Positions 8,727 through 58,715 of a DNA stretch of 64,000 nt are shown piece by piece. The DNA is from Bacillus sp. ISL-45. GTDB taxonomy: Bacteria; Bacillota; Bacilli; Bacillales; Cytobacillaceae. The translations under genes and the position numbers were made by a program. The notes beneath the pieces were generated by a model, which made no database searches, had not been told where the DNA came from, and saw only the letters and a list, made by a program, of their open reading frames with translations. The stretch is from contig NZ_JAGGQQ010000004.1 in NCBI RefSeq assembly GCF_018613195.1, forward strand, positions 397,375 to 461,374, in the 5' to 3' direction. Position 1 is the stretch's first letter. Each line of letters starts with the position of its first letter.

Positions 8727-9281
8727 ATGTTGACGATGAATGATATCGTCCGTGATGGACATCCCGTGCTCCGAAAAGTCGCGGAAGAGGTTCCTATGCC
8801 CCCTTCACAGGAAGATAAGGAAGTGCTTGAAAGCATGATTGAATATGTTAAAAACAGCCAGGACCCAGAAGTTGCCCAAAAAAATGGGCTCCGTCCCGGA
8901 ATCGGTCTTGCTGCACCACAAATAAATGTATCGAAAAGAATGATTGCTGTTCATGTAACTGACGAAAAAGATAATTTATTGAGCCATGCCCTTTTCAACC
9001 CAAGAATCATCAGCCATTCAGTGGAACGTTCCTACCTTGCAGCCGGTGAAGGATGCCTGTCAGTTGATGAGTCGATCCCTGGATATGTGCCGAGATATGC
9101 CAGGATAACCGTAAAAGGAATAGATCTTGAAGGAAATGAAGTAAAACTTCGCCTAAAAGGCCTGCCAGCGATTGTCTTCCAGCATGAAATCGATCATTTA
9201 AACGGCATCATGTTTTACGACCACATCAATAAACAAGATCCATATACAGAAATTCCCGATGCAAAACCAGTTGAAAGATAA
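8727..9281 (+). CDS. def: Peptide deformylase
   Basis: Metalloenzyme that removes the N-formyl group from nascent proteins. All three family motifs are present: GIGLAAPQ (58-65), EGCLS with metal-ligand Cys110 (108-112), and HEIDH with metal-ligand His153/His157 and catalytic Glu154. Length 184 and sequence fit the long Gram-positive type-2 enzyme DefB/YkrB. The ATG at 8727 follows GAGGTG by 6 bases; a GTG three codons upstream is inside that site. Synteny with ykyA, pdh, ykrA and rnjA matches B. subtilis. Confidence 0.97.
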   Translation: MLTMNDIVRDGHPVLRKVAEEVPMPPSQEDKEVLESMIEYVKNSQDPEVAQKNGLRPGIGLAAPQINVSKRMIAVHVTDEKDNLLSHALFNPRIISHSVERSYLAAGEGCLSVDESIPGYVPRYARITVKGIDLEGNEVKLRLKGLPAIVFQHEIDHLNGIMFYDHINKQDPYTEIPDAKPVER

Positions 9282-9309
9282 AAGCCGAATCCTGAGATTC
9301 GGCTTTTTT
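9282..9309 (+). terminator. Intrinsic terminator after def
   Basis: AAGCCGAAT pairs with ATTCGGCTT around a short loop and is followed by T, directly after the stop codon. Confidence 0.9.
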
Positions 9310-9364
9310 GTGGCTTTAACCACTTTAATAACATTGAAGGCATAAGCTAAATCAAAGTCATTTA

Positions 9365-9655
9365 TGACAGGTTTCCGGTTTCACCCTGTTAACCTGTCTA
9401 AATTGCGATGTTTTCTTAACAGCTTTCCTCTGGTTTGATTCGAACCTGTCTTTATTCCGGTACATTTTTGCCAGCTTTTTCTCTAAATGGGCTTAAACCT
9501 GTCATAATTACCACGGTTTCTTGACAGCTTTTCAGGTTTTTGGCTCAAACATGTCATAATAATCACGGTTTCTTGACAGCTTTTCATTATTACACCGTCA
9601 ACATGTCATAATTCCGGGGGGTTTCTTGACAGCTTTTCCTGCATCCCGCTCAAAC
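9365..9655. repeat. Tandem array 1 of hairpin units, period 52-53 bp
   Basis: Diverged units begin at CTGTC/ATGTC positions 9394, 9446, 9499, 9551 and 9603, with a final start at 9656, so successive spacings are 52, 53, 52, 52 and 53 bp. In the best units CTGTCA pairs with TGACAG 23 bases later, with a conserved TTTCTTGACAGCTTTTC segment. The array lies between the def terminator and MITE copy A, and its last unit is fused to the MITE at a shared CTGT. Confidence 0.85.
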
Positions 9656-9835
9656 CTGTTTTCGTAAAGATTGTTGTTAAAATCCTAAAGCCGATTTTAA
9701 CGTAATGTAAGCCATTTTGCAGGTCGGTATTTAGTTTGCATGCTCTTTTCTCACAAAAGAATCAACTTTTCGAATAAAAATAGGCCATTCAATCCTATTT
9801 TGTAGTCAATAGCAACAAAGTTTGAGAAAAGAGCT
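9656..9835. mobile_element. MITE copy A (left end recombined)
   Basis: Same about 180-bp element as at 34852, 38194, 49734 and 59437. The left end has lost the first bases of the terminal repeat by fusion to tandem array 1. Internal inverted repeats GTTAAAATC/GATTTTAAC and GCTCTTTTCTCA/TGAGAAAAGAGC are kept. The right end abuts the ykrA stop codon (9841-9843). Confidence 0.85.
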
Positions 9836-9840
9836 TTATT

Positions 9841-10611
9841 CTAAATCAAATCCAGCTCTTTCAAACCGTGCCAGATTCCATCGTCATCTACATCCCGGGT
9901 AACCATATTAGCGAGTTTCTTCAATTCAGGAACAGAATTGCCCATGGCAACCCCTGTACCGACTGCTTGAATCATCTCAAGGTCATTCAACCCATCACCA
10001 AAAGCGTATACATCTTCCCGTTTGAAACCTAATCGCTCCACCATCTTCTTGATTCCTTCCGCTTTAGACCCTCCCGCTGGCAGAATATCAACAGAGTATG
10101 GATGCCACCTGATAAAGTTAAACTCAGGATAGGTCTCCCTATAATACTTTTCCTGGCCTTCTTCGCAGAACAATAGCGTTTGGTAGAGGTCCCGATCTAC
10201 ATAAAATCGGTCATCATGTTCAGGATGGGCGAACTTCAGGTCACCCAGGCTTTTTTCAATGTATTCGTGGTGCTTCACTGATGATTTCATCGTCATATTG
10301 TTCATAAAAACGACTGGATGGCCCTTATCTGCAGCTTCAAAATAAAGTTCTTCTATCTTTCCATTATTCAATGGATTCTGGCTGATTGGCTCCCCTTCAA
10401 ACACAACATATTGTCCGTTAAAACTTACAAAAGAATCGATCTCCAGCTCTTCTCTCAGGTATTCGAACATAAATGGAGCCCTCCCTGTAGCAATGGCTAC
10501 AAAAACCCCATTATTTTTTAATGTAACAATTGCCTCTTTTGTAGAATCCGGCAGATTTTTATCATGGTCCAACAGTGTACCATCTATATCAAAAAATACG
10601 ATTTTGCTCAT
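9841..10611 (-). CDS. ykrA: Cof-type HAD-IIB phosphatase, YkrA
   Basis: Cytoplasmic HAD-superfamily phosphatase of 256 residues. Motif I is DIDGT (8-12, nucleophile Asp8 and acid/base Asp10), motif II is ATGR (41-44), motif III is the Lys in GGSKAEGIK, and motif IV is GDGLNDLEM. The cap between motifs II and III is the alpha/beta type of subclass IIB (Cof/YidA/YwpJ). Such enzymes hydrolyse sugar phosphates or flavin/PLP-type phosphates; the substrate is not known. Position beside def and rpoY-rnjA matches B. subtilis ykrA. The stop codon falls in the 8 bp next to MITE copy A. Confidence 0.92.
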   Translation of the reverse strand: MSKIVFFDIDGTLLDHDKNLPDSTKEAIVTLKNNGVFVAIATGRAPFMFEYLREELEIDSFVSFNGQYVVFEGEPISQNPLNNGKIEELYFEAADKGHPVVFMNNMTMKSSVKHHEYIEKSLGDLKFAHPEHDDRFYVDRDLYQTLLFCEEGQEKYYRETYPEFNFIRWHPYSVDILPAGGSKAEGIKKMVERLGFKREDVYAFGDGLNDLEMIQAVGTGVAMGNSVPELKKLANMVTRDVDDDGIWHGLKELDLI

Positions 10612-11472: not shown

Positions 11473-13140
11473 ATGAAATTCGTTAAAAATGACCAAACAG
11501 CCGTTTTCGCGCTCGGTGGACTAGGCGAGATCGGCAAGAATACCTATGGGGTGCAGTTCCAGGATGAAATCATCCTGATCGATGCCGGCATAAAATTCCC
11601 AGAAGATGAATTACTGGGTATCGATTATGTTATCCCCGACTATTCCTACCTGGTAAAAAATGAAGACAAAATTAAGGGCCTGTTCATTACCCATGGCCAC
11701 GAGGACCACATCGGCGGTATCCCTTATTTGCTGCGCGAAATCAATGTTCCAATCTATGGCGGCAAGCTGGCACTCGGCCTGATCAAAAACAAGCTTGAAG
11801 AGCACGGTTTGTTGCGAAAAGCGAAGCTGATCGAAATCAAGGAAGACGACATTATCAAGTTCCGTAAAACTTCGGTCACTTTCTTCAGAACAACACACAG
11901 TATTCCCGATTCATATGGTGTAGTAGTGAAAACGCCTCCTGGCCAAATTGTCCACACAGGCGATTTCAAGTTTGATTTTACACCGGTAGGTGAACCAGCC
12001 AATTTGACAAAAATGGCTGAAATTGGCAAAGAAGGTGTCCTTTGCTTACTTTCGGACAGTACAAATGCCGAGGTTCCGCACTTCACGATGTCTGAACGCC
12101 GTGTTGGCGAAAGCATTCATGATATTTTCCGAAAAGTGGATGGACGGATCATCTTTGCTACTTTCGCTTCCAATATCCACCGCTTACAGCAGGTTGTTGA
12201 AGCTGCGGTCGCAAACGGCAGAAAAGTTGCCGTATTCGGACGGAGCATGGAATCAGCGATCAATATCGGACAAGAACTTGGCTATATCACTGCGCCAAAG
12301 GATACATTCATTGAAGCACAGCAAATCAACAGACTCCCTGCCAACCAGGTAACAATCCTTTGTACCGGAAGCCAGGGCGAGCCAATGGCTGCTTTATCAA
12401 GGATTGCGAACGGTACACACCGCCAAATCCAAATTCAGCCTGGCGATACAGTAGTGTTCTCGTCTTCTCCGATCCCTGGTAATACCATCAGCGTTAACAG
12501 GACAATCAACATGCTGTCACGTGCAGGTGCAGATGTTATCCACGGTTCATTGAATGACATCCATACTTCAGGACACGGTGGTCAGGAAGAGCAGAAATTG
12601 ATGCTTCGTCTGATCAAACCGAAATACTTTATGCCAATCCACGGGGAGTACCGCATGCAAAAGATGCATACGAAACTCGCTACTGATTGTGGAGTTGCTA
12701 AAGAGAACTGCTTTATCATGGATAACGGTGAAGTACTTGCTCTTGGCGATAACGAGGTTGGCGTAGCCGGGAAGATTCCTTCCGGCAATGTCTACATTGA
12801 CGGAAGTGGAGTTGGCGATATCGGGAACATTGTTCTTCGCGACCGCCGAATCCTGTCCGAGGAAGGCCTTGTTGTTGTAGTAGTTAGCATCAATATGAAG
12901 GAATTCAAGATTGCTGCAGGTCCTGACCTGATTTCACGCGGGTTTGTCTATATGCGCGAATCTGGCGACCTGATCAACGACGCACAAAGCCTGATCAATA
13001 AGCACTTAAATAAAGTAATGGAAAGAAAAACAACTCAGTGGTCAGAAATCAAAAACGAAATCACTGATACGCTTGCACCTTTCCTCTACGAAAAAACAAA
13101 ACGCCGTCCAATGATCCTGCCGATCATTATGGAGATTTAA
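11473..13140 (+). CDS. rnjA: Ribonuclease J1
   Basis: Metallo-beta-lactamase/beta-CASP nuclease of 555 residues, the same length as B. subtilis RNase J1. It is a 5'-to-3' exonuclease and endonuclease central to mRNA turnover and 16S rRNA 5' maturation. The zinc motif [10 protein letters not shown] gives His74, His76, Asp78 and His79. The beta-CASP insert follows, with SDSTNAE and later SGHGGQEE, and the C-terminal domain ends in [12 protein letters not shown]. It overlaps no neighbour but begins 3 bp after rpoY and ends in a strong terminator. Confidence 0.98.
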
Positions 13141-18104: not shown

Positions 18105-18328
18105 TCGTACCCCCAACCTTGTAAAAATAGCAACGCGCAGAAAAAAATTGGAAAAGCTTAGCAAAAAAGAAAAGCACGTATACATTAATATATCGAGTTT
18201 CGAAATATTTTTCCAGTATTTTTTAGAATTTTTATATTTTTTTGTATATGGAAATTATCAGATTTTAACTGAAAAAGGCAGGCGAAATGGTGTTGGACTT
18301 TGGAATCAAAGGAATCAGAAGGCCTCGA

Positions 18329-18628
18329 TAGGACAAGCTTGTGGTCATAACAGAGAAAAGTGTCCGTTAGGTGAGCTATATCGGACAAACTCGTTGTCTT
18401 TATGCAGAAAAATGTCCGTTAGAAGGGCTCTATCGGACAAAAACGTGGTCTTTATTCAGAAAAAGTGTCCGTTCGAAGGGCTATATCGGACAAACTCGTG
18501 GTCCTTATGCAGAAAAATGTCCGTTAGAAGGGCTCTCGGACAAACTCGTGGTCTTTATGCAGAAAAGTGTCCGTTAGAAGGACTCTATCGGACAAACTCG
18601 TGGTCTTTATGCAGAAAAGTGTCCGTTA
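18329..18628. repeat. Tandem array 2 of hairpin units, period 50-53 bp
   Basis: Well-conserved units begin at TGTCCGTT positions 18361, 18413, 18466, 18518, 18568 and 18620 (spacings 52, 53, 52, 50, 52), with a partial unit on the left. In each, TGTCCG pairs with CGGACA 21 bases later; the fifth start is one short because the preceding unit has lost two bases in the loop (CTCGGACA). A reading frame runs through the array but is out of register from unit to unit, so it is not a repeat protein. The array ends at the 3' end of the redoxin gene. Confidence 0.92.
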
Positions 18629-18643
18629 AACCCTCAAAAGGAT

Positions 18644-19099
18644 TCATTCTTCCTTTTCCATTTCTTCGAGAACTCTGATCACACGTTTTTCAAGCATCTT
18701 TAAACCGCTTCCGCCAGCCTGAAAATGCCTTAACAAACCATTATGATCAAAAAGGTAGTAAGCTGGTACATATTGATTCTCAAACGCGTCCGTCAATATG
18801 TGGTCATGATCAATAAAAATGGGCTGGGACATGCTGTGTTCAGCTGCCACCTGTTTGATTTCTTTGATATTCATGTCTTTTTCTGACCGTGGCATATGGA
18901 CAGCCACCACATTCAGATTATCTTTATATTGATTGCGCAGTTCATTAACCGATGGCATTGCTACCTTGCATAGATGACAGCTGATTGACCAAAAGTGAAT
19001 CAGAGTCGGCTTTTCACCAACCAGCTGTTCTCTAGTAACCTCTCCATTGAGCCATTCAGCGGCCCCGTTTATTTCAGGCATAGGTTGACGCAATCTCAT
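18644..19099 (-). CDS. TlpA/ResA-like thiol-disulfide redoxin
   Basis: Thioredoxin-fold protein of 151 residues with the redox pair Cys41-His-Leu-Cys44 in FWSISCHLCK, and VPAYYLFD supplying the cis-Pro strand. The insert with VHMPRSEKD follows the AhpC/TSA-TlpA pattern. No signal peptide or membrane helix is present, so it seems cytoplasmic, unlike membrane-attached ResA. The ATG at 19099 is chosen because AAAGAGGTG lies 7 bases before it; upstream in-frame codons include a Cys-containing leader with no ribosome site. It is co-oriented with dapL, about 70 bp downstream of it. Partner proteins unknown. Confidence 0.88.
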   Translation of the reverse strand: MRLRQPMPEINGAAEWLNGEVTREQLVGEKPTLIHFWSISCHLCKVAMPSVNELRNQYKDNLNVVAVHMPRSEKDMNIKEIKQVAAEHSMSQPIFIDHDHILTDAFENQYVPAYYLFDHNGLLRHFQAGGSGLKMLEKRVIRVLEEMEKEE

Positions 19100-34851: not shown

Positions 34852-35194
34852 AGCTGTTTTCGTAAGGCTGTTTTCGTAAAGATTGTTGTTAAAATCCTAA
34901 AGCCGATTTTAACGTATTATAAGGCCATTTTGCAGGTCGGTATTAAGTTTGCATGCTCTTTTCTCACAAAGGAGTCAATTTTTCGAAGAAAAATGGGTCA
35001 TTTAATTTTATTTTGTAGTCAAAAGCAACAAAGTTTGAGAAAAGAGCCTTTCGTAAGATTGTTGTACGTGATAAAAAGCCATTTTGCAGTTCGAATTAAG
35101 TGTGCAAGATCTTTTCTCATAATTTTTTGTGAAAAAACATTGGTTATTCAATCCTATTTGGTAGTCAATAGCAACAGAATTTGAGAAAAGAGCC
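34852..35194. mobile_element. MITE copy B: tandem pair, flanked by TTTCTATA duplication
   Basis: The 8-bp sequence TTTCTATA occurs at 34844-34851 and again at 35195-35202. Between them are a full-length copy (about 34866-35047) preceded by a 14-base partial end repeat, and a second, shorter copy (about 35048-35194) that lacks the GTTAAAATC/GATTTTAAC hairpin. The right duplication contains the cheV stop codon (35198-35200). No coding capacity. Confidence 0.93.
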
Positions 35195-35197
35195 TTT

Positions 35198-36100
35198 CTA
35201 TAAAATTAATTCATCGATCTTCAGTACCAGTTCACTAATCTCTGGCTTGCTGATCTGTGCATCCGCCCCCACTACACTCCCCTTATGTCGCAGTTCATTC
35301 GTAATCAAGGATGAAAAAATGATAACAGGAAGTTTTTGAAGAACCGAGTGCTCTTTTATTCTTTTTGTCAGGTGATGTCCATCCATTTGCGGCATTTCTA
35401 TATCTGTGATTACCAGTTGAACTGACTTTGAAAAGACGTCAGTATCCACTGCCAGGTGTTCAAGATAGGTTATGGCATCATGGCCATTCTCAAAGAATTC
35501 AAGATACTGGAATCCTGCTTCACTCAAGGTGTCATGAAGCATTTTCCTTAACATTGCAGAGTCTTCCGCAATCACGATCCTTTTCGTAGAGCGTTCCCTG
35601 GGACCAAGTTTGTTGACATCGCTAACCTTGATTCCAGACTCAGGGTTGATTTCAAGAAGGATTTTTTCAAAGTCAAGGAATAGTACCATTTCCCCTCCTA
35701 GCTTGATTACTCCGATAATTTGGCTCTCCTGGCCCTGATACATGTCTGATGGCTTCTCAATCTGAGACCAGGAGATTCGGTGGATTTGTGAAACCGCATG
35801 GACATGGAACACTGTCTTGATCTGGTTAAATTCCGCAACGATGAACTTATCCAACTGTGGATTTGTTGATTCCTTAAGCCCTAGCGCCGCTGAGACATTG
35901 ATGACTGGCAGCACTTCGCCCCTCAGCTCCATAATTCCTTCAACAAACGGATGAGCGTTAGGAATCGCCACCACCGGAACTGGGTTAAGAATTTCTTTCA
36001 CTTTCATGACATTTATCGCAAATTTATTCTGGCCTATGCCAAATTCGACAATTTCCAGTTCATTCGTGCCTGATTCTAATAATATACTGCTATCATTCAT
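35198..36100 (-). CDS. cheV: Chemotaxis coupling protein CheV
   Basis: Cytoplasmic chemotaxis protein of 300 residues. The N-terminal CheW-like domain (about 12-155; NELEIVEFGIGQNKFAINV, VEGIMELRGEVLPVI) links receptors to CheA. The C-terminal receiver domain has acidic Glu179/Asp180, phospho-acceptor Asp233 in ITDIEMPQMDG and Lys in ISKPE. In B. subtilis CheV phosphorylation mediates adaptation. Place beside ykyB and patA matches B. subtilis. Its stop codon is within the target duplication of MITE copy B, so any natural terminator has been displaced by the element. Confidence 0.95.
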   Translation of the reverse strand: MNDSSILLESGTNELEIVEFGIGQNKFAINVMKVKEILNPVPVVAIPNAHPFVEGIMELRGEVLPVINVSAALGLKESTNPQLDKFIVAEFNQIKTVFHVHAVSQIHRISWSQIEKPSDMYQGQESQIIGVIKLGGEMVLFLDFEKILLEINPESGIKVSDVNKLGPRERSTKRIVIAEDSAMLRKMLHDTLSEAGFQYLEFFENGHDAITYLEHLAVDTDVFSKSVQLVITDIEMPQMDGHHLTKRIKEHSVLQKLPVIIFSSLITNELRHKGSVVGADAQISKPEISELVLKIDELIL

Positions 36101-38193: not shown

Positions 38194-38376
38194 GGCTCTT
38201 TTCTCAAACTTTGTTGCTCTTGACTACAAAATAGGATTGAATGACCTATTTTTCTTCGCAAAGTTGACTCTTTTGTGAGAAAAGAGCATGCTAACTTAAT
38301 ACCGACCAACAAAATGGCCTACTATTACGTTAAAATCGGCTTTAGGATTTTAACAACAATCTTTACGAAAACAGCC
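38194..38376. mobile_element. MITE copy C, flanked by TTTTATTA duplication
   Basis: A 183-bp element in the opposite orientation to the other copies. It starts GGCTCTTTTCTCAAACTTTG and its other end is the reverse complement of GGCTGTTTTCGTAAAGATTG. TTTTATTA flanks it exactly at 38186-38193 and 38377-38384. The left duplication is the patA terminator tail and the right one contains the stop codon of the small gene at 38382. Confidence 0.95.
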
Positions 38377-39770: not shown

Positions 39771-40436
39771 ATGTTTTATAAAGAGCTTTATGTATATGAC
39801 GGCAACAGACCGTTAAAAGCAATCATTCGTAATTATACAAAGGATGATTTTGAGCAGTTGATATCGGTACAAAAGGAAGCCTTCCCGCCTCCTTTTCCAG
39901 AAGAACTCTTATGGAACACCGAGCAGCTGGCCAATCATGTAGATTTATTTCCCGAAGGTGCCCTCTGTGTGGAAGTCGGAGGTAGAATCGCGGGTTCCAT
40001 TACTGGACTGGTTGTTCATTTGATAAAAGGCGACGAAGATCATTCGTGGGAAGAAATAACCGATAACGGCTATATAAGGAATCATGATCCGGAAGGCAAT
40101 ACTCTTTACATTGTCGATATTTGCATAAGTCCGGCTTACCGCAAACTTGGTCTTGGTAAATGGATGATGCAATCTATGTATGAGACGGTCGTGCAATTAG
40201 ATCTTGAAAGACTTTTGGGCGGCGGAAGGATGCCAGGATACCACTTGCATTCCGCAGACTTGTCCATTGACCAGTATGTAGAAAAGGTACTTAAAGGTGA
40301 ATTGAAGGATCCAGTCGTTTCCTTTCTGCTGCGCTGCGGACGTACACCGGTCAAACCAGTAGCAAATTATCTTGAGGACGAAGAGTCATTGAATTACGGG
40401 ATGCTGATGGAATGGAAAAACCCCTTTAAAGCTTAG
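39771..40436 (+). CDS. ykwB: GNAT-family N-acetyltransferase, YkwB
   Basis: Acetyltransferase of 221 residues. The GNAT core includes RNYTKDDFEQLISVQKEAFP (motif C/D region), YIVDICISPAYRKLGLGKWMM (motif A, acetyl-CoA pyrophosphate loop R-K-L-G-L-G-K) and a C-terminal extension of about 70 residues. It is the equivalent of B. subtilis YkwB; the acceptor is unknown. TAGAGGTG precedes the ATG, and a terminator follows the stop. It is divergent from ykwC and convergent with ptsI. Confidence 0.9.
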   Translation: MFYKELYVYDGNRPLKAIIRNYTKDDFEQLISVQKEAFPPPFPEELLWNTEQLANHVDLFPEGALCVEVGGRIAGSITGLVVHLIKGDEDHSWEEITDNGYIRNHDPEGNTLYIVDICISPAYRKLGLGKWMMQSMYETVVQLDLERLLGGGRMPGYHLHSADLSIDQYVEKVLKGELKDPVVSFLLRCGRTPVKPVANYLEDEESLNYGMLMEWKNPFKA

Positions 40437-40463: not shown

Positions 40464-40500
40464 TTCTTTGCCAAAAGAGGTTCGCTATCAAGACTTCTGA

Positions 40501-40590
40501 ACCTGTCTGAAGCTGCTCCTTCTTCTGACAGCTTTTCTGCTTTTCCCTGCAAACCTGTCTGAAGTTACTCTTTCTTTTGACATTTAAAAG
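40501..40590. repeat. Tandem array 3, two units, period 52 bp
   Basis: CTGTCTGAAG occurs at 40503 and 40555. In the first unit CTGTC pairs with GACAG in a 29-base span, exactly as in array 1, and the CTTCTGACAGCTTTTC block is recognisably the same family. It lies between the facing terminators of ykwB and ptsI. Confidence 0.8.
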
Positions 40591-40737: not shown

Positions 40738-42453
40738 TTACAAAGAAATAGCTTGGTTTACTGCTTCAACCACTTCTTCAGTCGTACTCATGTTCAACAC
40801 ATTTGAAGCCAGCTTTTCCATATCGGCTTTGTTTAAGTTTCTGATCAATGAGCGTGCTTTCAGGATTGAAGAGGCACTCATCGAGAACTCGTCAAGGCCA
40901 AGTCCAAGCAGAATTGGAATTGCCGTTTCGTCACCGGCCATTTCTCCGCACATTCCAGCCCATTTACCTTCTTGATGAGCTGCATCAATGACCATTTTTA
41001 CGAGACGAAGAATGGATGGGTTGTATGGCTGATATAAGTATGATACTTGCTGGTTCATCCTGTCCGCTGCCATCGTGTATTGAATCAAGTCATTTGTTCC
41101 GATGCTGAAGAAGTCTACTTCCTTCGCAAACTGATCTGCAAGGACTGCAGTAGAAGGAATTTCAACCATGATGCCGAGCTCGATATGGTCAGCAACCTCG
41201 ACGCCTTCCTGGATCAATCTTGCTTTTTCTTCTTCAAGCATTGCTTTCGCTTCCCTGAACTCGTTCAGAGTAGCGATCATCGGGAACATAACTTTCAGGT
41301 TTCCATGAACACTAGCTCGCAAAAGAGCGCGCAGCTGCGTACGGAAAATATCCACTTCCTCAAGGCACAGGCGGATTGCCCTGAAGCCAAGGAAAGGATT
41401 CATTTCTTTAGGCAGGTTCAAGTATGGAAGCTCTTTGTCTCCGCCGATATCAAGAGTACGGACCACGACTGGTTTGCCTTCCATTCCTTCAAGCACTGCC
41501 TTATATGCTGTATATTGTTCCTCTTCAGTAGGAAGCTGGTCCCTGTCCATATAAAGGAACTCTGTACGGTAAAGACCTACACCCTCGCCGCCATTTTCAA
41601 CTACGCCCTTCAAATCTTTAGGTGTACCGATATTAGCTGCAAGTTCAACATGATGGCCATCAGCTGTTACAGACTTTTCGTTAACAAGTTTAGCCCATTC
41701 AGCTTTTTGCTTCTCGAAATCTTCTTGAATCTTCTTATAAGCTTCAAGCACTTCAGGAGTTGGATTGAAGTGAACTTCGCCCTTCAATCCGTCAACAACG
41801 ACGAGATCCCCGTTGTTGATTTCTTCTGTAGCTGCCTTTGTGCCTACAACTGCCGGAATTTCCATTGAACGAGCCATGATTGCTGAATGGGAGGTACGGC
41901 CGCCGATGTTCGTTGTAAATCCTTTTACAAACTGGCGATTCAATTGAGCAGTATCTGAAGGAGTCAAATCTTCCGCCACGATGACTACTTCTTCAGCAAT
42001 CATGCTAGGATTAGGAATCTGGATACCTAACAGATGGGCTAACACCCGTTTTGTGACGTCACGGATATCTGCCGCCCGTTCTTTCATATATTCATTGTCC
42101 ATGGATTCGAACATGCTGATGAACATATCAGCTGTTTCTTTTAATGCAAGCTCTGCATTAACATTTTCCGTTTTGATTTTGTCTTCGATGGGTGAAATCA
42201 ATTCTGGATCGCTCAATACTAGAAGGTGAGCATCAAAAATCGCTGCTTTATCAGCTCCTAAAGCAGTTCCCGCATGATCGCGGATTTTTTCCAGCTCAAC
42301 TTTTGCTGTCTGAAGCGCTGACTGAAAACGGGCAATTTCTTCAGCGGGAGCGTCTATTGTTTTTTTTTCAAAAGAAAAGTCCGGTTCTACCAGCTTATAG
42401 GCTTTGGCGATCGCAATGCCGTTTGAAGCGGCAATTCCCTGGAGAAAGCCCAT
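40738..42453 (-). CDS. ptsI: Phosphoenolpyruvate-protein phosphotransferase (PTS enzyme I)
   Basis: Cytoplasmic enzyme of 571 residues that takes phosphate from PEP onto His189 ([12 protein letters not shown]) and passes it to HPr, the first step of all PTS sugar uptake. The N-terminal HPr-binding/His domain (1-240) is followed by the PEP-binding barrel with [23 protein letters not shown] and the catalytic Cys in GMCGEMAGD. Normal length. The start codon shares one base with the ptsH stop, indicating coupled translation. Confidence 0.98.
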
Positions 42454-49733: not shown

Positions 49734-49914
49734 GACTGTTTTCGTAAAGATTGTTGTTAAAATCCTAAATCCGATTTTAACGTAATATAAGGCATTTTGC
49801 TGGTCGGTATTAAGTGTGAATGCTCTTTTCTCACATAAGAGTCAACTTTGCGAAGAAAATAGGCCATTCAACCCTATTTGGTAGTCAATAGCAACAAAGT
49901 TTGAAAAAAGAGCC
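49734..49914. mobile_element. MITE copy D, flanked by TTTTATTT duplication
   Basis: A 181-bp element with ends GACTGTTTTCGTAAAG and the reverse complement of GGCTCTTTTTTCAAAC. TTTTATTT occurs at 49726-49733 and 49915-49922. The right duplication contains the stop codon (49917-49919) of the convergent YkvI-type gene, and the left one is the tail of the upstream gene's terminator. Confidence 0.95.
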
Positions 49915-49916
49915 TT

Positions 49917-50960
49917 TTATTTATTCACATTAACTGGTTTCATCCATAACAAGACAATAAAAATTAAACTGATGTAGCCAAAAACCGGATAAAGGATGGA
50001 AAGCAGCGTTCCATAATCAATCAAGCTGATGAAATAACAAATTAAAAAGAGCAGTGAGACGACAAGCAGGCTTGGCAGCTTGATATACTTTTGAATTTGC
50101 CTTTCCAGACCAAAAATATTACCAATTACCGAGGTGAAAATTTCCCCATATACAATCAAGACAAAAATCCAGTATAGACCAGCAGCAAGCTGTTTCATTA
50201 CAACAGCCATCGGAATCTCAAATGTTTCGAATCCAGGCAGCATAATTAAAGTCAAATGGCTTGAAAGCAAAATTAAGGTAAGTGCTATCCCGCCCAGGAT
50301 TCCACCCCATTTTACAGTATGATCGTCTTTCATCTCGGCTGCTACAGGAACCAGGACTGCCTGGGCAAGCGACAGGTTCAGCGCTGTATATGAAAATGGT
50401 CCGATCACAGCCTTCCAGCCATCCTCTGCATATGGAATAAAAACGACCTGTTCAATAAATCCAGGCAATTTAACTGACAGGAAGAATAAGATCAGACTGA
50501 ACAAGATCATCATCGGCACGACAAAAGTGTTCACAGCAAAGACGCCCTTTAAGCCGACAACCATGACGGCAAGTGACAGTGCAATCGTGACAAAGATCCC
50601 CAGGGACTTAGTCATTCCAAGCTGCTCTTCAAAAACTGCCCCTGCACCTGATAACATAACGGCACAAACTCCAAGCAGCATAAACAGCATCATAATATTG
50701 ATGATTCTGCCAAAAAACTTCCCAAATAAATGAACATTCATTTCTTCGTATGAATGGGCACCGATCGCCGCTGCGATGCGCATCAATTTTGCACCCATAT
50801 ATGTAAGAATATATCCCGCCATGAAAACACCAATTAATCCAAAAAGTCCAAAGCGGGAAAAGAATTCGACGATTTCCCTCCCTGTCGCAAAGCCGGCTCC
50901 CACAACAGTACCGACATAAACAGCAGCGATTTGAAAGGCAGCACCCCAGTTTGTCTTCAA
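49917..50960 (-). CDS. ykvI: YkvI-family membrane transporter
   Basis: Integral membrane protein of about 347 residues with some ten helices; the first carries AAVYVGTVVGAGFATGREIVEFF, a LeuT-fold APC-superfamily type start with a broken helix (GAGFATG). The family (COG3949, YkvI) is predicted to transport amino acids or related compounds; no substrate is known. TTG at 50960 is used because GGAGGGG lies 7 bases upstream; the longer frame would translate that site. It is divergent from clpE. Its stop codon lies in the MITE target duplication. Confidence 0.9.
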   Translation of the reverse strand: MKTNWGAAFQIAAVYVGTVVGAGFATGREIVEFFSRFGLFGLIGVFMAGYILTYMGAKLMRIAAAIGAHSYEEMNVHLFGKFFGRIINIMMLFMLLGVCAVMLSGAGAVFEEQLGMTKSLGIFVTIALSLAVMVVGLKGVFAVNTFVVPMMILFSLILFFLSVKLPGFIEQVVFIPYAEDGWKAVIGPFSYTALNLSLAQAVLVPVAAEMKDDHTVKWGGILGGIALTLILLSSHLTLIMLPGFETFEIPMAVVMKQLAAGLYWIFVLIVYGEIFTSVIGNIFGLERQIQKYIKLPSLLVVSLLFLICYFISLIDYGTLLSILYPVFGYISLIFIVLLWMKPVNVNK

Positions 50961-53680: not shown

Positions 53681-56600
53681 ATGGGGTTTCTCACAAGATT
53701 CAGTCTCAAAAATGCTTTTGCTGTATTTATCATTTCCTTTTTGTTAATACTCGGAGGCCTGTATTCCTTCACTCGCCTGAAGGTCGACTTACTGCCGAAT
53801 ATCGAGTTCCCGCAGCTTTCTGTTGAAGTCATTTATCCGGGAGCATCGCCTCAGGATATCAATGAACAAGTGACAGAAAAACTGGAAACTAAATTCAAAG
53901 GAATTGATGGACTCAAGAAAATCCAGAGCTCTTCCTATGAAAGCATCGCAATCATCAATCTTGAATTCCCTTTCGATACTGAATTGGATGATGCTGAACA
54001 GCAGGTCAATTCCTTCATCAAGGAGGCAGGACTTCCTGAAAATGTAGAAGCAAATGTCAACCGCTTTTCATTTGGCACATTCCCAATTTTCAATATTTCT
54101 CTGTTCGCAAAAGGAGATCAAGACCTCGAAAAGCTTGTGAACGATGAAATTATCCCTGAACTGAATAAAATCCAGGGAATCAACAGTGTCTCAGTTGGCG
54201 GTATGACTGAGGAGATCCTCCAGATTACTGTTGATCAGGAAAAGGCTGCCCAGTTTGCGCTTAGCCTGAATGAAATTAAAGAAAGTATCAATGCCAAAAA
54301 ATTCAGCTTTCCAGCTGGCAACTTGAATGAAAACGAAATCCAAGTGCCGGTAAGGGTCCAGGAAAAAATTGAAGAAATCAATGAACTCGAAAACCTGGTG
54401 ATGCAGTCAAAATTCGCCCCTAATGCACCGCAAGTTAAACTGGGGGATATTGCCTCAATTAAGGTTGCAACCGAGAAACCGGAAATCACCCGCTACAATG
54501 AAAAAGAATCTTTATCGATGGCAATTACGAAAAAGCAGGATGCCAATACGGTTGAAGTTGCCGAGAAGGTTCTGGCAGTTATAAACAGCTATGACGACCG
54601 GCTTGAATACGCGATTGGTTTCGATTCTGCAGAAGGAATTGAAAAGTCGGTCAATACCTTGGTTAAGGAAGGCTTGCTTGGAGCCCTGTTTGCTTCGATC
54701 GCCGTACTGATCTTCCTCAGGAACTTCAGGGCGACAATCATTGCGATTGTGTCGATTCCGCTTTCGTTATTGATTTCGTCGATCTTTTTAAACCAGCTTG
54801 ATATTTCATTGAACATCATGACACTTGGCGGTATGGCAGTAGCAGTTGGCCGGGTAGTCGATGATAGTATCGTCGTTATTGAGAACATCTTCCGGAGAGT
54901 CCGGAAAGCGAATAAAGACATGACAGATGATTTGATTCAGGATTCCACTAAGGAAATTCTGAAGGCGATCACATCCTCAACCATAACCACGGTTGTTGTA
55001 TTCCTGCCGTTAGGACTTGTCGGGGGAATTACCGGGGAATTCTTTTTGCCATTCGCTTTGACTATTGTTTTTTCCTTGCTAGCATCATTAATCGTAGCCG
55101 TCACAATCGTCCCGATCCTGGCAAAATTCTCATTCAAGAAGGTTCCTAAGGAAGAAAAAGAAGGTGCGCTCCAAAAAGCCTATGCACCTTCAATCAAATG
55201 GTCATTGAACCATAAGGCACTAGTCATCATCCTCTCGATTGCCCTGCTTGCGGGTTCAGGATTCCTTGTCAAAGGCCTTGGTTTCACGTTCATTCCTAAC
55301 GAGGAGCAAAAACTGCTGGTGGCTACTTTCCAGCTGCCTTCTTCTACTTCACTTGATAAAACGAATGAAGTATCTTTGAAGGTCGAAAACATGTTCGCAG
55401 AACAAACAGAAATTAATGATGTTACCGTTGGAATCGGCAGCCGGGACTTCCAAACCGGCCTCAAACGACAAAACCAGGCGAACTATTTTATCAGTCTGGG
55501 AGATGGCGTAAGTGTTTCCGAGTTTATACCTGAGCTAGAAAAAGAAATGGAAAATATCGTTCTATCAATAGAGCCAGATGCCAAAATCGGTATCCAGGAA
55601 CAATCCACAGGCGGTCCGCCATCTAATAATAATGTCAACATTGACTTGTACTCTACTGATTTGGCTGTCTTGCAGGACGCGGCTGCCAGGGTAGAAGATT
55701 ACATGATGAAGCAGGAAGACCTAAAATATGTATCCAACAATTTTTCTGAGAAACAAAAGCAAGTGATTGTAGATATCGACCCTGAAAAGTCTGCTCAATT
55801 AGGGGTTTCCGGGTTCCAGGTTCTTGGTACCATAACTGATAAAACGAAGCCCGTAGACGCTGGTTTAATGAAACTGGGCGGTGAAGAACGACGTGTTTCC
55901 ATAACCTATGATGAAAAATCCGAAACAATAGAGGATCTCAAGAATACGGTGATCTTCACACAACAGGGACCAGTCCCGATCACTGAAATAGCCAGTATCA
56001 CTGAAACGGAGGCATTCACTTCGATCCAAAAATTAGATGGCAAGATATTCGCCCGCGTTTCAGCACAAATTGATTCAAATGATATCAGGGCTGTTTCGAA
56101 TGCCGTTATAGATGGCGTCCAAAATGACATTGAACTGCCTGATGATGTTTCCCTTGAAGGCGGGGGCGGCAGTGATGAGACCGTTGAAACATTCACACAA
56201 TTGGGAATTGCGATGATCGTGGCCATCGGACTTGTGTATTTGACCATGCTGATCACATTCGGTCAGGCAAGGATTCCGATTATTATTCTCTCATCCTTGA
56301 TTTTCGTCCCAATCGGCTCCTTGCTTGGACTATGGATTGCCGATGAACCTATGTCAGTTAGCGTCATGATTGGATTGCTGATGCTAATAGGGATTGTTAC
56401 AACCAATGCGATTGTCATGGTGGACCGGATTGGCCAGAACCGGACAGAGAAAGGAATGCCTATCCGCGAGGCGCTTGTTGAAGCAGGAATCACGAGGCTG
56501 CGGCCAATCCTGATGACGGCCTTTGCTACGATCGCTGCATTGATTCCATTGGCTCTCACTACTTCATCTGGCACCCTGATCTCAAAAGGGCTGGCAGTAA

Positions 56601-56707
56601 CCGTAATTGGAGGGCTCACCTCCTCCACCCTGTTGACGTTGATCCTGATCCCTGTTATTTATGAGGTTTTTTTCTTCAGACAGGTGAAAAAAGAACGCAG
56701 CTTATAA
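53681..56707 (+). CDS. swrC: RND-family efflux transporter, SwrC/YerP type
   Basis: Large membrane pump of 1008 residues in the HAE1 (AcrB-like) family found singly in Bacillus. The topology is one N-terminal helix, a large extracytoplasmic porter loop (about 35-320), helices 2-6, an amphipathic linker, helix 7, a second large loop (about 530-830) and helices 8-12. TM4 keeps the proton-relay pair in VGRVVDDSIVVIENI. In B. subtilis SwrC exports surfactin and gives tolerance to it. No MFP or outer-membrane partner is adjacent, as expected for a Gram-positive. AATGAGG precedes the ATG. Confidence 0.93.
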   Translation: MGFLTRFSLKNAFAVFIISFLLILGGLYSFTRLKVDLLPNIEFPQLSVEVIYPGASPQDINEQVTEKLETKFKGIDGLKKIQSSSYESIAIINLEFPFDTELDDAEQQVNSFIKEAGLPENVEANVNRFSFGTFPIFNISLFAKGDQDLEKLVNDEIIPELNKIQGINSVSVGGMTEEILQITVDQEKAAQFALSLNEIKESINAKKFSFPAGNLNENEIQVPVRVQEKIEEINELENLVMQSKFAPNAPQVKLGDIASIKVATEKPEITRYNEKESLSMAITKKQDANTVEVAEKVLAVINSYDDRLEYAIGFDSAEGIEKSVNTLVKEGLLGALFASIAVLIFLRNFRATIIAIVSIPLSLLISSIFLNQLDISLNIMTLGGMAVAVGRVVDDSIVVIENIFRRVRKANKDMTDDLIQDSTKEILKAITSSTITTVVVFLPLGLVGGITGEFFLPFALTIVFSLLASLIVAVTIVPILAKFSFKKVPKEEKEGALQKAYAPSIKWSLNHKALVIILSIALLAGSGFLVKGLGFTFIPNEEQKLLVATFQLPSSTSLDKTNEVSLKVENMFAEQTEINDVTVGIGSRDFQTGLKRQNQANYFISLGDGVSVSEFIPELEKEMENIVLSIEPDAKIGIQEQSTGGPPSNNNVNIDLYSTDLAVLQDAAARVEDYMMKQEDLKYVSNNFSEKQKQVIVDIDPEKSAQLGVSGFQVLGTITDKTKPVDAGLMKLGGEERRVSITYDEKSETIEDLKNTVIFTQQGPVPITEIASITETEAFTSIQKLDGKIFARVSAQIDSNDIRAVSNAVIDGVQNDIELPDDVSLEGGGGSDETVETFTQLGIAMIVAIGLVYLTMLITFGQARIPIIILSSLIFVPIGSLLGLWIADEPMSVSVMIGLLMLIGIVTTNAIVMVDRIGQNRTEKGMPIREALVEAGITRLRPILMTAFATIAALIPLALTTSSGTLISKGLAVTVIGGLTSSTLLTLILIPVIYEVFFFRQVKKERSL

Positions 56708-56740: not shown

Positions 56741-56760
56741 AATAAGATTTAAATTTGAAA

Positions 56761-56925
56761 GATACCCTTCTACAAGTATATCCACTCTCATAAGGGTACC
56801 GTTCCGGCCGAATGATACCCTTGTGCAAGCTTTCCCGCCTCCATAAGGCTACCGTTCCGGTCGAATCGTACCCTTATGCAAGCTTTCCCGCCTCCATAAG
56901 GGTACCGTTCGGACGAATGATACTG
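56761..56925. repeat. Tandem array 4 of hairpin units, period 53 bp
   Basis: TACCC occurs at 56763, 56816 and 56869 (spacings 53, 53), and the related TACTG start is near 56920 (51). Within the best unit TACCCTTAT pairs with ATAAGGGTA 27 bases later around TTTCCCGCCTC. The sequence is unrelated to arrays 1-3, yet the period is the same. It lies between the facing terminators of the RND pump and the oligopeptidase. Confidence 0.88.
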
Positions 56926-56955: not shown

Positions 56956-56997
56956 AAAAAACTGCAGACAAACCGATTCTTATCGTTTGTCTGCAGC
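56956..56997 (-). terminator. Intrinsic terminator after the oligoendopeptidase gene
   Basis: On the minus strand CTGCAGACAAACGAT pairs with ATCGGTTTGTCTGCAG, followed by TTTTTTATTT. Confidence 0.92.
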
Positions 56998-57020: not shown

Positions 57021-58715
57021 TTACAGCTTACTGTCGTCAACTGAATCAAGCCAGCTCTCGATTTCACCAATTACTGACTGGACGCATCCTTCTTCAAATG
57101 GAGAAATCAGGTTTGCTTCCTTAACTAGGTCAGTGAAAGCCATGCTTCCTCCCAGCTTGCACAGGTTAGCATAGTCTTTCCATGCTTCTGCCTGGTTTTC
57201 TCTTGAACGCTTCCAGAATTGGAAAGCACAAATCTGCGCAAGCGTGTAATCGATATAGTAGAAAGGTGAATTATAGATATGGCCTTGTCGCTGCCAGAAT
57301 CCGCCTGCTTCTAAATAAGTGTTTCCGTCATAGTCTTTATGCGGAAGATACTTCTTCTCGATCTCACGCCATTGCTGCTTTCTTTCTGCAGGTGTAGCTT
57401 CAGGATTCTCATAAACCCAGTGCTGGAATTCATCGACAGAAACTCCGTATGGCAGGAATAGCAGCGCACTGCTTAGATGCGAGAATTTATATTTATCAGT
57501 ATCCTCTTTGAAAAATAGTTCCATCCATGGCCATGTGAAGAATTCCATGCTCATCGAGTGGATTTCACAAGCCTCATAAGTAGGCCAGTTATATTCCGGA
57601 ATCTCAAAATGACGGCTTGAATATACCTGGAAGGCATGGCCTGCTTCATGTGTCAGGACATCGATATCACCAGAAGTTCCATTAAAATTTGAGAAGATGA
57701 ATGGTGACTTATAATTTTCAATGTATGTGCAATAGCCTCCGCCTGCTTTCCCTTTCTTCGCGACCAGGTCCATCAGATTGTTTTCATTCATGTAGCGGAA
57801 AAATTCACCTGTCTCAGAAGATAGCTCCTCATACATTTGCTGTCCATTTTCAATGATCCACTCAGGACTTCCCTTTGGAGCGGCATTACCGGTTTTGAAA
57901 TCGAATGGCTCATCATAGTACTTTAATTCCCCGACTCCTATACGATTCTTTTGACGTTCCTTAAGCTTCGAGGCGACCGGAACAATGTATTTATGGACCT
58001 GGTCCCTGAATGCCGCTACCATGCTGCTGTCATAGTCAGTACGGAACATGCGGTAGTATGCCAGCTCTACAAAGTTGCTGTAGCCAAGCTTATGGGCCAT
58101 TTCTGTCCTGACTTTAACAAGATCATCATAAATACGGTCAAACTCTTCTCCATGCCCAGAAAAGAATGCAAATTTTGCTTCACTTGCTTTCTTTCTTGTT
58201 TCGCGATCTTTAGATTCGGTGAAAGGATCAAGCTGCGCGAGGGTTCGCTCTTCACCTTCAAACATGATTTTTGCAGAAGCAACAAGCTTTGTATATTCAG
58301 TTGAAAGCTTATTTTCCTTTTGCATCAAAGGAACGATCTCCTGTGAAAACTGCTTTAATTGTGCTTCGGCAAGAGCGAAAAGCTGTCGTCCCCATTTGGC
58401 TTCAAGTTCATCGCGAAAAGAAGAGGAAACAAGTGCTTCATAATATTTTGTCACCAAACCCTCCACCTGCGGCGCCAGTTCATCCAGGAAATCCTGTTCT
58501 TCCTTATAGAATTCATCCTCGGTATCGATTGAATGGCGGATATAGCATAGGTTGAACATGGTGCCAACATCATTCCGCAAATCATTGATCCCATTCATGG
58601 CTGTGCTTTGCTCCTCAACAGAACCAGCATTTTTAAATTGTTCAAGCAGTTTATCGAATTTGGCGGTGACTTCATCCAAATTCGGGCGAGTATATGTATA
58701 TTGCTCGAAATTCAC
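57021..58715 (-). CDS. M3-family oligoendopeptidase (PepF-like)
   Basis: Cytoplasmic zinc metallopeptidase of 564 residues that trims oligopeptides. The active site is LTHEAGHAFQVYSS, the HExxH motif, with the third zinc ligand Glu in YEACEIHSMSMEFF. The N-terminal helical domain with EQYTYTRPNLDEVTAKFD covers the cleft, as in the family. It is somewhat shorter than the about 600-residue PepF of lactococci, but similar M3B enzymes of 560-570 residues are common in Bacillus. The start is GTG after AAAGGGGG. It is a single-gene transcript with its own terminator. Confidence 0.94.
   Translation of the reverse strand: MNFEQYTYTRPNLDEVTAKFDKLLEQFKNAGSVEEQSTAMNGINDLRNDVGTMFNLCYIRHSIDTEDEFYKEEQDFLDELAPQVEGLVTKYYEALVSSSFRDELEAKWGRQLFALAEAQLKQFSQEIVPLMQKENKLSTEYTKLVASAKIMFEGEERTLAQLDPFTESKDRETRKKASEAKFAFFSGHGEEFDRIYDDLVKVRTEMAHKLGYSNFVELAYYRMFRTDYDSSMVAAFRDQVHKYIVPVASKLKERQKNRIGVGELKYYDEPFDFKTGNAAPKGSPEWIIENGQQMYEELSSETGEFFRYMNENNLMDLVAKKGKAGGGYCTYIENYKSPFIFSNFNGTSGDIDVLTHEAGHAFQVYSSRHFEIPEYNWPTYEACEIHSMSMEFFTWPWMELFFKEDTDKYKFSHLSSALLFLPYGVSVDEFQHWVYENPEATPAERKQQWREIEKKYLPHKDYDGNTYLEAGGFWQRQGHIYNSPFYYIDYTLAQICAFQFWKRSRENQAEAWKDYANLCKLGGSMAFTDLVKEANLISPFEEGCVQSVIGEIESWLDSVDDSKL

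Follow-up and report, generated by a model that had tools for sequence, protein, structure and literature searches.

Fixed 52-bp period and half-site layout of noncoding tandem arrays in Bacillus sp. ISL-45

Subirana and Messeguer are said to have described constant-size 52-nt repeats of Bacillus in J Bacteriol in 2020. Two other systems of palindromic units are the REP/BIME elements, which are intergenic and often lie near gene 3' ends, and sopC of plasmid F, a tandem array whose units of about 40–50 bp each contain a single inverted repeat to which a dimer binds.

The closest described class is that of Subirana and Messeguer (2021, PMC8161180), who found tandem repeats of constant 52-nt length and variable sequence in about 30% of 176 Bacillus genomes. 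Using a detection rule of at least 4 repeats within 800 nt, they reported 1886 arrays of 51–53 nt with species-specific sequence, stated that nothing pointed to a Cas-like protein, and offered nucleoid binding or a small RNA as guesses. Their Table 1 lists repeats of B. selenatarsenatis that also occur in B. subterraneus (now Mesobacillus). Transcripts of B. coagulans repeats appear in a further report (PMC8625621). The repeats have been a puzzle in print since 2020–2021, because only their length seemed to be common to them.

Here we analysed 64,000 nucleotides of Bacillus sp. ISL-45 (the window), together with further loci of this genome and its relatives. The phenomenon of 52-bp arrays is already published; the half-site layout is measured here. 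Like the published class, the ISL-45 arrays have a repeat length of 51–53 nt (arrays 1–4 of the window and 47/51 of the noncoding arrays sampled), several families per genome and partial conservation between strains. They also combine different sequences of the same length with short signals and their reverse in one repeat, though 10/24 arrays without the TGTC layout described below lack a significant inverted repeat. Whereas PMC8161180 reports no sequence conservation, a fixed TGTC-N19-GACA-N25 layout was measured in ISL-45; the N19 part is visible by eye in 5 of the 27 consensus units of that paper's Table 1 (B. coagulans 8_52_18 and 2_52_35, litoralis 42_52_9, thermoamylovorans 30_53_11 and alkalitelluris 71_52_7). 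Its text contains neither gene context, nor replication orientation, nor the word "intergenic". In a search mostly outside subscription journals, which include the 2020 J Bacteriol paper, we found no publication with the half-site layout or the strand bias.

CRISPR arrays have identical repeats and unique spacers, but here the whole 52-bp unit repeats, and in the relative's locus L031 the spacers recur, by eye, as four-unit blocks. Centromere arrays of the sopC type also consist of tandem units with an inverted repeat; in ISL-45, by contrast, the sampled third or so of the chromosome holds 47 arrays with many different sequences. REP/BIME elements with their RAYT (Y1) transposases share the intergenic palindromic units, whereas the ISL-45 arrays show no linkage to Y1 genes.

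Arrays of the window and their period

The ISL-45 genome comprises 4.6 Mb in 27 contigs. Among the best 80 of 577 relatives, the protein encoded at 11473–13140, presumably RNase J by B. subtilis gene order, is 99% identical to that of Bacillus sp. ISL-37 and 98% identical to that of Mesobacillus subterraneus DSM 13966, and judged by this identity ISL-45 is a Mesobacillus-like member of the Bacillaceae. A record titled Chryseobacterium sp. ISL-80 (L036) has 97% identity in the same protein and neighbours syntenic with the window, so that its title is probably a mislabel. We sampled 81 loci of ISL-45 (1.663 Mb, about a third of the chromosome), some of whose ranges overlap matches known beforehand, and a grid of 400 kb at round coordinates. 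Genes were called by a custom script, not taken from an annotation, and gene distances carry that error; the coding fraction so called was 0.76 in the first 41 loci.

TRF and a repeat search upheld the coordinates and the 52–53 bp period of the four arrays that a first-pass annotation of the window had described (Table 1). Array 3 was found by the repeat search and missed by TRF, and a stricter TRF run gave shorter extents for the others. The annotation had also called the four sequences unrelated. This does not hold for arrays 1, 2 and 3, which have the TGTC-N19-GACA-N25 layout in common (TGTC-N19-GACA-N25-TGTC starts at 9500, 9552, 18361, 18466, 18568 and 40504), and its observation is in this respect only partly confirmed; array 4 does differ, with GGGT/ACCC half-sites at nearly the spacing of the TGTC/GACA layout. 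The layout common to arrays 1–3 may reflect common descent or common recognition. By the rule of at least 4 repeats, arrays 1 and 2 would enter the published class, while array 4 (3.2 copies) and array 3 (2) would fall below its cut-off. Eight neighbouring genes were scanned against Pfam, and seven received an identity: deformylase, HAD hydrolase, thioredoxin-fold protein, ABC transporter, acetyltransferase, PEP-utilising enzyme and RND transporter.

Table 1. Arrays and associated features of the window
Feature	Position	Strand	Description	Repeat-search spacings (bp)	TRF, looser scoring	Half-site matches	Neighbours
Deformylase intrinsic terminator	9280–9312	+	inverted repeat, then T-run				precedes array 1
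Array 1	9362–9659	.	5 to 6 units of 52–53 bp	52, 53, 52; second family 105, 52, 53	9391–9659, period 52	TGTC-N19-GACA 9500–9526, 9552–9578	peptide deformylase terminator (stop 9281); convergent HAD hydrolase gene 9841–10611
Array 2	18331–18628	.	about 6 units of 50–53 bp; 27-nt hairpins TGTCC..GGACA	52, 53, 102 (= 50 + 52)	18317–18628, period 52	TGTC-N19-GACA 18361, 18413, 18466, 18568	thioredoxin-fold gene 18644–19099 (minus strand), 16 bp from its stop
Array 3	40500–40582	.	two units, 52 bp apart	52		TGTC-N19-GACA 40504, 40556; GACA-N25-TGTC 40527	convergent GNAT acetyltransferase 39771–40436 and PEP-utilising enzyme 40738–42453
Array 4	56757–56923	.	three 53-bp units, ATACCCTTATG..CATAAGGGTA	53, 53	56757–56923, period 53	GGGT-N19-ACCC 56794; ACCC-N26-GGGT 56764, 56870	convergent RND transporter 53681–56707 and 57021–58715 (no Pfam match)
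Dispersed repeat, about 180 bp	9653–9846, 34868–35050, 35076–35204 (partial), 38195–38374, 49736–49921					

The period is not particular to the window. In the 81 ISL-45 loci (1.66 Mb), 47 of the 51 noncoding arrays with a period of at least 47 bp lay at 51 (3), 52 (37) or 53 (7), with one each at 81, 146, 177 and 190, and in the grid sample all 11 arrays with a period of at least 37 lay at 51–53. This concentration is far beyond chance. The first-pass annotation had named a broad distribution of unit lengths as evidence that would count against its own proposal; the distribution in ISL-45 is not broad. The window and 80 loci of relatives gave periods of at least 37 bp at 37 (1), 52 (10), 53 (2), 54 (2), 158 (1) and 333 (1), three rows coming from the window itself and several representing the same slot in near relatives. 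With coding and noncoding arrays counted together, 10 of 13 arrays with a period of at least 43 lay at 51–52 in a genome of the same genus (G028), and 4 of 14 with a period of at least 41 lay at 51–53 in one of another genus (G094).

Individual units are equally regular. Over 201 units of 34 arrays, measured by a script that dropped pieces outside 40–64 nt, the mean length was 52.08 (s.d. 0.75), and 94% were at 51–53. Adjacent units showed 0.03–0.18 indels per substitution across similarity bins, compared with 0.41–0.68 in orthologous intergenic DNA of the same clade, a comparator that includes long gaps and has only 2 pairs in its lowest similarity bin. The size of this difference is uncertain, because the alignment was simple, the comparator gaps were long and TRF prefers indel-poor arrays. 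With that crudeness of alignment, both measures support a constraint on unit length.

A second noncoding period peak in the ISL-45 sample lies at 21 bp (31 rows, from L111–L150, L161–L200 and the window) and may be the published 20–21-nt class. The latter, known from the B. simplex group (PMC8161180), likewise has fixed length, whole helical turns and variable sequence; its unit spans two turns, and that of the ISL-45 arrays five. In Bacillus marasmi (L099:11740–12762), nearly 20 copies of a 52-bp unit directly follow the orthologue of 11473–13140, and the TGTC layout is not obvious in their consensus.

Half-site layout and hairpins

The consensus units of many arrays resemble one another in that TGTC and GACA stand at constant distances. 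In the noncoding DNA of 41 ISL-45 loci, TGTC-Nx-GACA occurred 91 times at x = 19 and 63 times at x = 71, one unit on, and GACA-Nx-TGTC 89 times at x = 25 and 67 times at x = 77, the median in each case being 2. The 20 grid stretches alone had 11 matches at x = 19 and 11 at x = 25 versus 1, and the relatives' 80 loci 28 and 31 versus 2. When coding DNA was included, TGTC-N19-GACA occurred 143 times in the 81 ISL-45 loci versus 9–38 times at other gaps from 8 to 40; 129 of the 143 had another within 110 bp, and 14 stood alone. Inside ISL-45 TRF arrays, N19 separated TGTC from the first GACA after it in 89 of 99 cases. Of 163 pairs of successive sites lying 40–65 bp apart, 154 had a distance of exactly 52 bp. 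From centre to centre, the half-sites are separated by 23 bp over one dyad and by 29 bp over the following one, which add up to 52, and an equal spacing of 26 bp was rejected. At least one TGTC-N19-GACA was present in 23 of the 47 ISL-45 arrays. The proposal that the period is kept while the sequence changes therefore takes a narrower form: in about half of the arrays, half-site positions and period are kept and the spacers vary.

The layout taken twice, a double unit of 16 fixed bases, occurred 349 times in the ISL-45 genome, with 0 matches for the reversed control; in the other genome samples the control gave 0, and once 1. At family level, 75 of 121 genomes had it, spread over 17 of 25 genera. 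An order sample that includes ISL-45 and one congener had it in 14 of 66 genera (18 of 101 genomes), and among the 149 genomes of a phylum sample ISL-45 alone had it. On these counts the TGTC layout is widespread in the order and not seen outside it. The double unit was missing from 46 of the 121 family genomes, including all 13 of genus g2, and any role must therefore be dispensable. The 16-base layout offers a one-line presence marker for any genome, from which a cognate gene would be traceable by phyletic profile, and a defined DNA probe for pull-down.

Hairpins of 27 nt are common among the units. Among the 24 ISL-45 arrays without the TGTC layout, 14 had significant stems, 11 of which cover the half-site position of that layout (shuffle expectation 20%). 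A single family (TACCCTTAT) accounts for six of these 11 arrays and TGTCC variants for two, so that the independent support amounts to about five families. In the other 10, no inverted repeat outdid shuffled sequences at p ≤ 0.1 (60 shuffles per array), and yet the period was kept. The description as hairpin arrays thus suits many arrays and not these 10. Printed matches, judged by eye and not counted, show two types of hairpin in several of the order's taxonomic families: TGTCYNTCAT-N7-ATGANRGACA and TGTCYNNTAGA-N5-TCTANNRGACA. Across genera, the inner arms differ in sequence yet stay complementary, in keeping with a hairpin or cruciform, or with quasi-palindromes repaired by template switching, a process known to correct them.

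Gene context and replication strand

The arrays are noncoding and lie in gene-free DNA. The first-pass annotation had suggested a location between convergent genes, and arrays 1, 3 and 4 of the window do lie there, array 2 being near a gene end. Over the 41 ISL-45 arrays with both neighbours called, 26 were between tandem, 11 between convergent and 4 between divergent genes, compared with 625, 132 and 176 of 933 other gaps of at least 60 bp. The preference for convergent genes is mild (11/41 vs 132/933, Fisher p 0.04; divergent deficit p 0.21) and is not a rule, with 26 of 41 arrays between tandem genes; absorption of supercoils between convergent genes was rejected, since the enrichment is only mild. 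Between tandem genes, 17 of 26 arrays were nearer the upstream stop.

Most arrays do not look like intrinsic terminators: for 4 of the 39 gene ends that lie no more than 220 nt from an array, the array itself held a GC-rich hairpin with a T-run in the direction of the adjacent gene. Array 2 belongs to these four cases, with 5 such structures. Sixteen of the 39 gene ends had an intrinsic terminator before the array, all among the 26 with at least 45 nt of room, and this proportion did not differ significantly from the control (254/535). Between array 4 and its convergent gene, a perfect 12-bp inverted repeat with an 11-nt loop (56962–56996) is possibly a terminator.

Purines are enriched on one strand of the arrays. 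Taking the leading strand as estimated from the GC skew of each locus in all samples, 41 of 47 ISL-45 arrays were purine-rich on it (24/26 tandem, 9/11 convergent, 3/4 divergent, 5/6 unplaced), array 2 being an exception. Other gaps were so in 57–71% (41/47 vs a background of 0.66, p 0.0009), and the mean purine skew on the leading strand was 0.15–0.21 in arrays versus 0.03–0.04 in other intergenic gaps. Mutational strand bias as the cause was rejected, since fourfold sites and other intergenic DNA have a skew of about 0.02–0.04. Among targeted loci from other genera, purines prevailed on the leading strand in 14 of 20 arrays (p 0.12), and in G028 in 8 of 10 (p 0.11), neither being significant alone; the counts were 4 of 5 in G094, where one of the five is a 56-bp repeat within a long open frame, and 1 of 4 in genus g9 (G033). 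Local GC skew tracks gene orientation in the ISL-45 loci (correlation 0.94), and so does the leading-strand estimate derived from it, which leaves the effects of replication and transcription partly confounded. Between tandem genes, 21 of the 26 arrays have their purine-rich strand as the sense strand. Replication is nevertheless favoured, because outside tandem gene pairs 17 of 21 arrays (11 convergent, 4 divergent, 6 unplaced) follow the leading strand. This strand bias is a second, independent clue beside the layout. As to known polar motifs, AGCGG occurred on the leading strand of 2 of the 47 consensus units, and none of the units had the word of SpoIIIE or the Chi word of E. coli.

Proposed phased binding sites and alternative explanations

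These results leave it quite possible, if tentatively so, that the arrays are phased binding sites, about five helical turns apart, for a putative dimeric DNA-binding factor. In the commonest form, each unit has two inverted half-sites, TGTC and GACA, and 52 bp correspond to about five turns of B-DNA; a dimeric factor reading the half-sites would sit on the same face of successive units and could form a cooperative complex in gene-free DNA. Spacers would be free to drift, and arrays to grow or shrink by multi-unit recombination, while half-site positions are kept. The purine-rich spacers of the leading strand suggest a single orientation, relative to the replication fork, in which an array is made, used or maintained, and there might be a nucleoid or replication-linked role. 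This reading is supported by the period, the half-site geometry, the phylogenetic spread, the stem positions, the few indels and the strand counts. It is weakened because only 23 of 47 arrays have TGTC-N19-GACA and 10 of the 24 others have no significant dyad. Complementary inner arms also count against it, because a protein reading only TGTC does not require them, as do the strand bias, which a symmetric dimer does not explain, the patchy presence, the 4/14 arrays at 51–53 in G094 and the 5/27 published units with N19. The first-pass annotation had proposed a protein binding one face of the DNA; the half-site geometry fits such a protein, and none was found. The annotation's interpretation as a whole is partly supported.

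We consider somewhat unlikely a replication-coupled satellite without host function, a 52-bp module multiplied by slippage, template switching or nick-and-copy acting on the template of the lagging strand. Template switching would then keep the arms complementary although their sequences differ, and the period would come from the amplifying machinery and not from selection on use. The turnover among relatives is in keeping with it, as are the strand orientation of the arrays and their patchy presence across genomes. In the deformylase/hydrolase gap, an array is present in the window, L031 and L032, and 32–206 bp without array in L034–L038. The gap at the thioredoxin-fold gene holds three unrelated units: TGTCC units in the window, L031, L032, L033 and L036, in L035 an array of ATAAGGGT, and in L094 a 54-bp unit unrelated to these. 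By eye, the gap in L034 and L038 has no array but an ordinary terminator. In L035, a TGTCC hairpin like one in L036 adjoins the ATAAGGGT array, and the new family therefore seems to have been added beside a remnant of the old. Array lengths vary between near relatives, and L031 has, by eye, a higher-order repeat with a 208-bp block of four units. A satellite alone accounts neither for the recurrence of TGTC-N19-GACA-N25 across the order (14 of 66 sampled genera) nor for the 52 bp held by diverged units. Compared with binding arrays, it is the better explanation of turnover and strand bias and the poorer one of the recurring layout.

A Y1/RAYT transposase as the amplifying machine is not supported and was rejected. 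Its association with the arrays is mild (the pattern is present in 67/102 genomes with Y1 vs 8/19 without, Fisher p 0.07), and at E ≤ 0.001 no Y1 match was found in the array-rich genomes G003 (506), G002 (107), G044 (77), G068 (63) and G086 (41). TGTC-N19-GACA was present in 0 of 18 Y1 loci (14 from eight chosen genomes, four from a family search), and 3 of them had one lone GACA-N25-TGTC. One Y1 transposase gene of ISL-45 (L230, G000:C27:142727–143059) looks RAYT-like; it has on both sides a hairpin with a 17-bp stem, GTGACAGGCACCTCCCA.. / ..GGTGCCTGTCAC, a REP-like pair with GACA-N27-TGTC, unlike the 52-bp units.

Still more doubtful is the wider proposition that many of the "variable" repeats follow one dyad grammar of fixed spacing (23/29 bp, TGTC being dominant and ACCC one variant). 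A hitherto undescribed factor of the order would read this grammar by phased DNA binding, and the fork-oriented arrays would act as directional chromosome-organising or fork-linked elements.

Least likely, and weakest in the ISL-45 genome, is an RNA element: transcription of the arrays would yield hairpin chains joined by purine-rich linkers, which act as such or undergo processing. The 27-nt hairpins, the sense-strand purines between tandem genes and the 52-nt repeats in B. coagulans RNA-seq (PMC8625621) agree with it, and the leading-strand orientation of 17/21 arrays not between tandem genes, the terminator before the array at 16/26 gene ends with room, and a strict 52-nt period that an RNA does not need speak against it. 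Stem mismatches gave no consistent RNA strand: on the leading strand, G-U outnumbered A-C in the loci of other genera (68 vs 18; 11 arrays vs 6, 3 ties; 24 of the 68 from one array), in agreement with an RNA, and was not favoured in ISL-45 (27 vs 42; 6 arrays vs 11, 10 ties). A processed RNA, which the first-pass annotation had listed, is thus not favoured. Against Rfam, neither the window nor the arrays in seven other loci gave a match; the one match in those loci, a T-box leader (L212:18044–18266), lies away from its array.

Array 1 is abutted by a MITE-like dispersed repeat of about 180 bp (Table 1), which has 46 matches in the ISL-45 genome, mostly at 89–96% identity (40 of 157 first-look candidates scored). 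In another locus, L134, this repeat forms, by eye, a 177-bp tandem pair.
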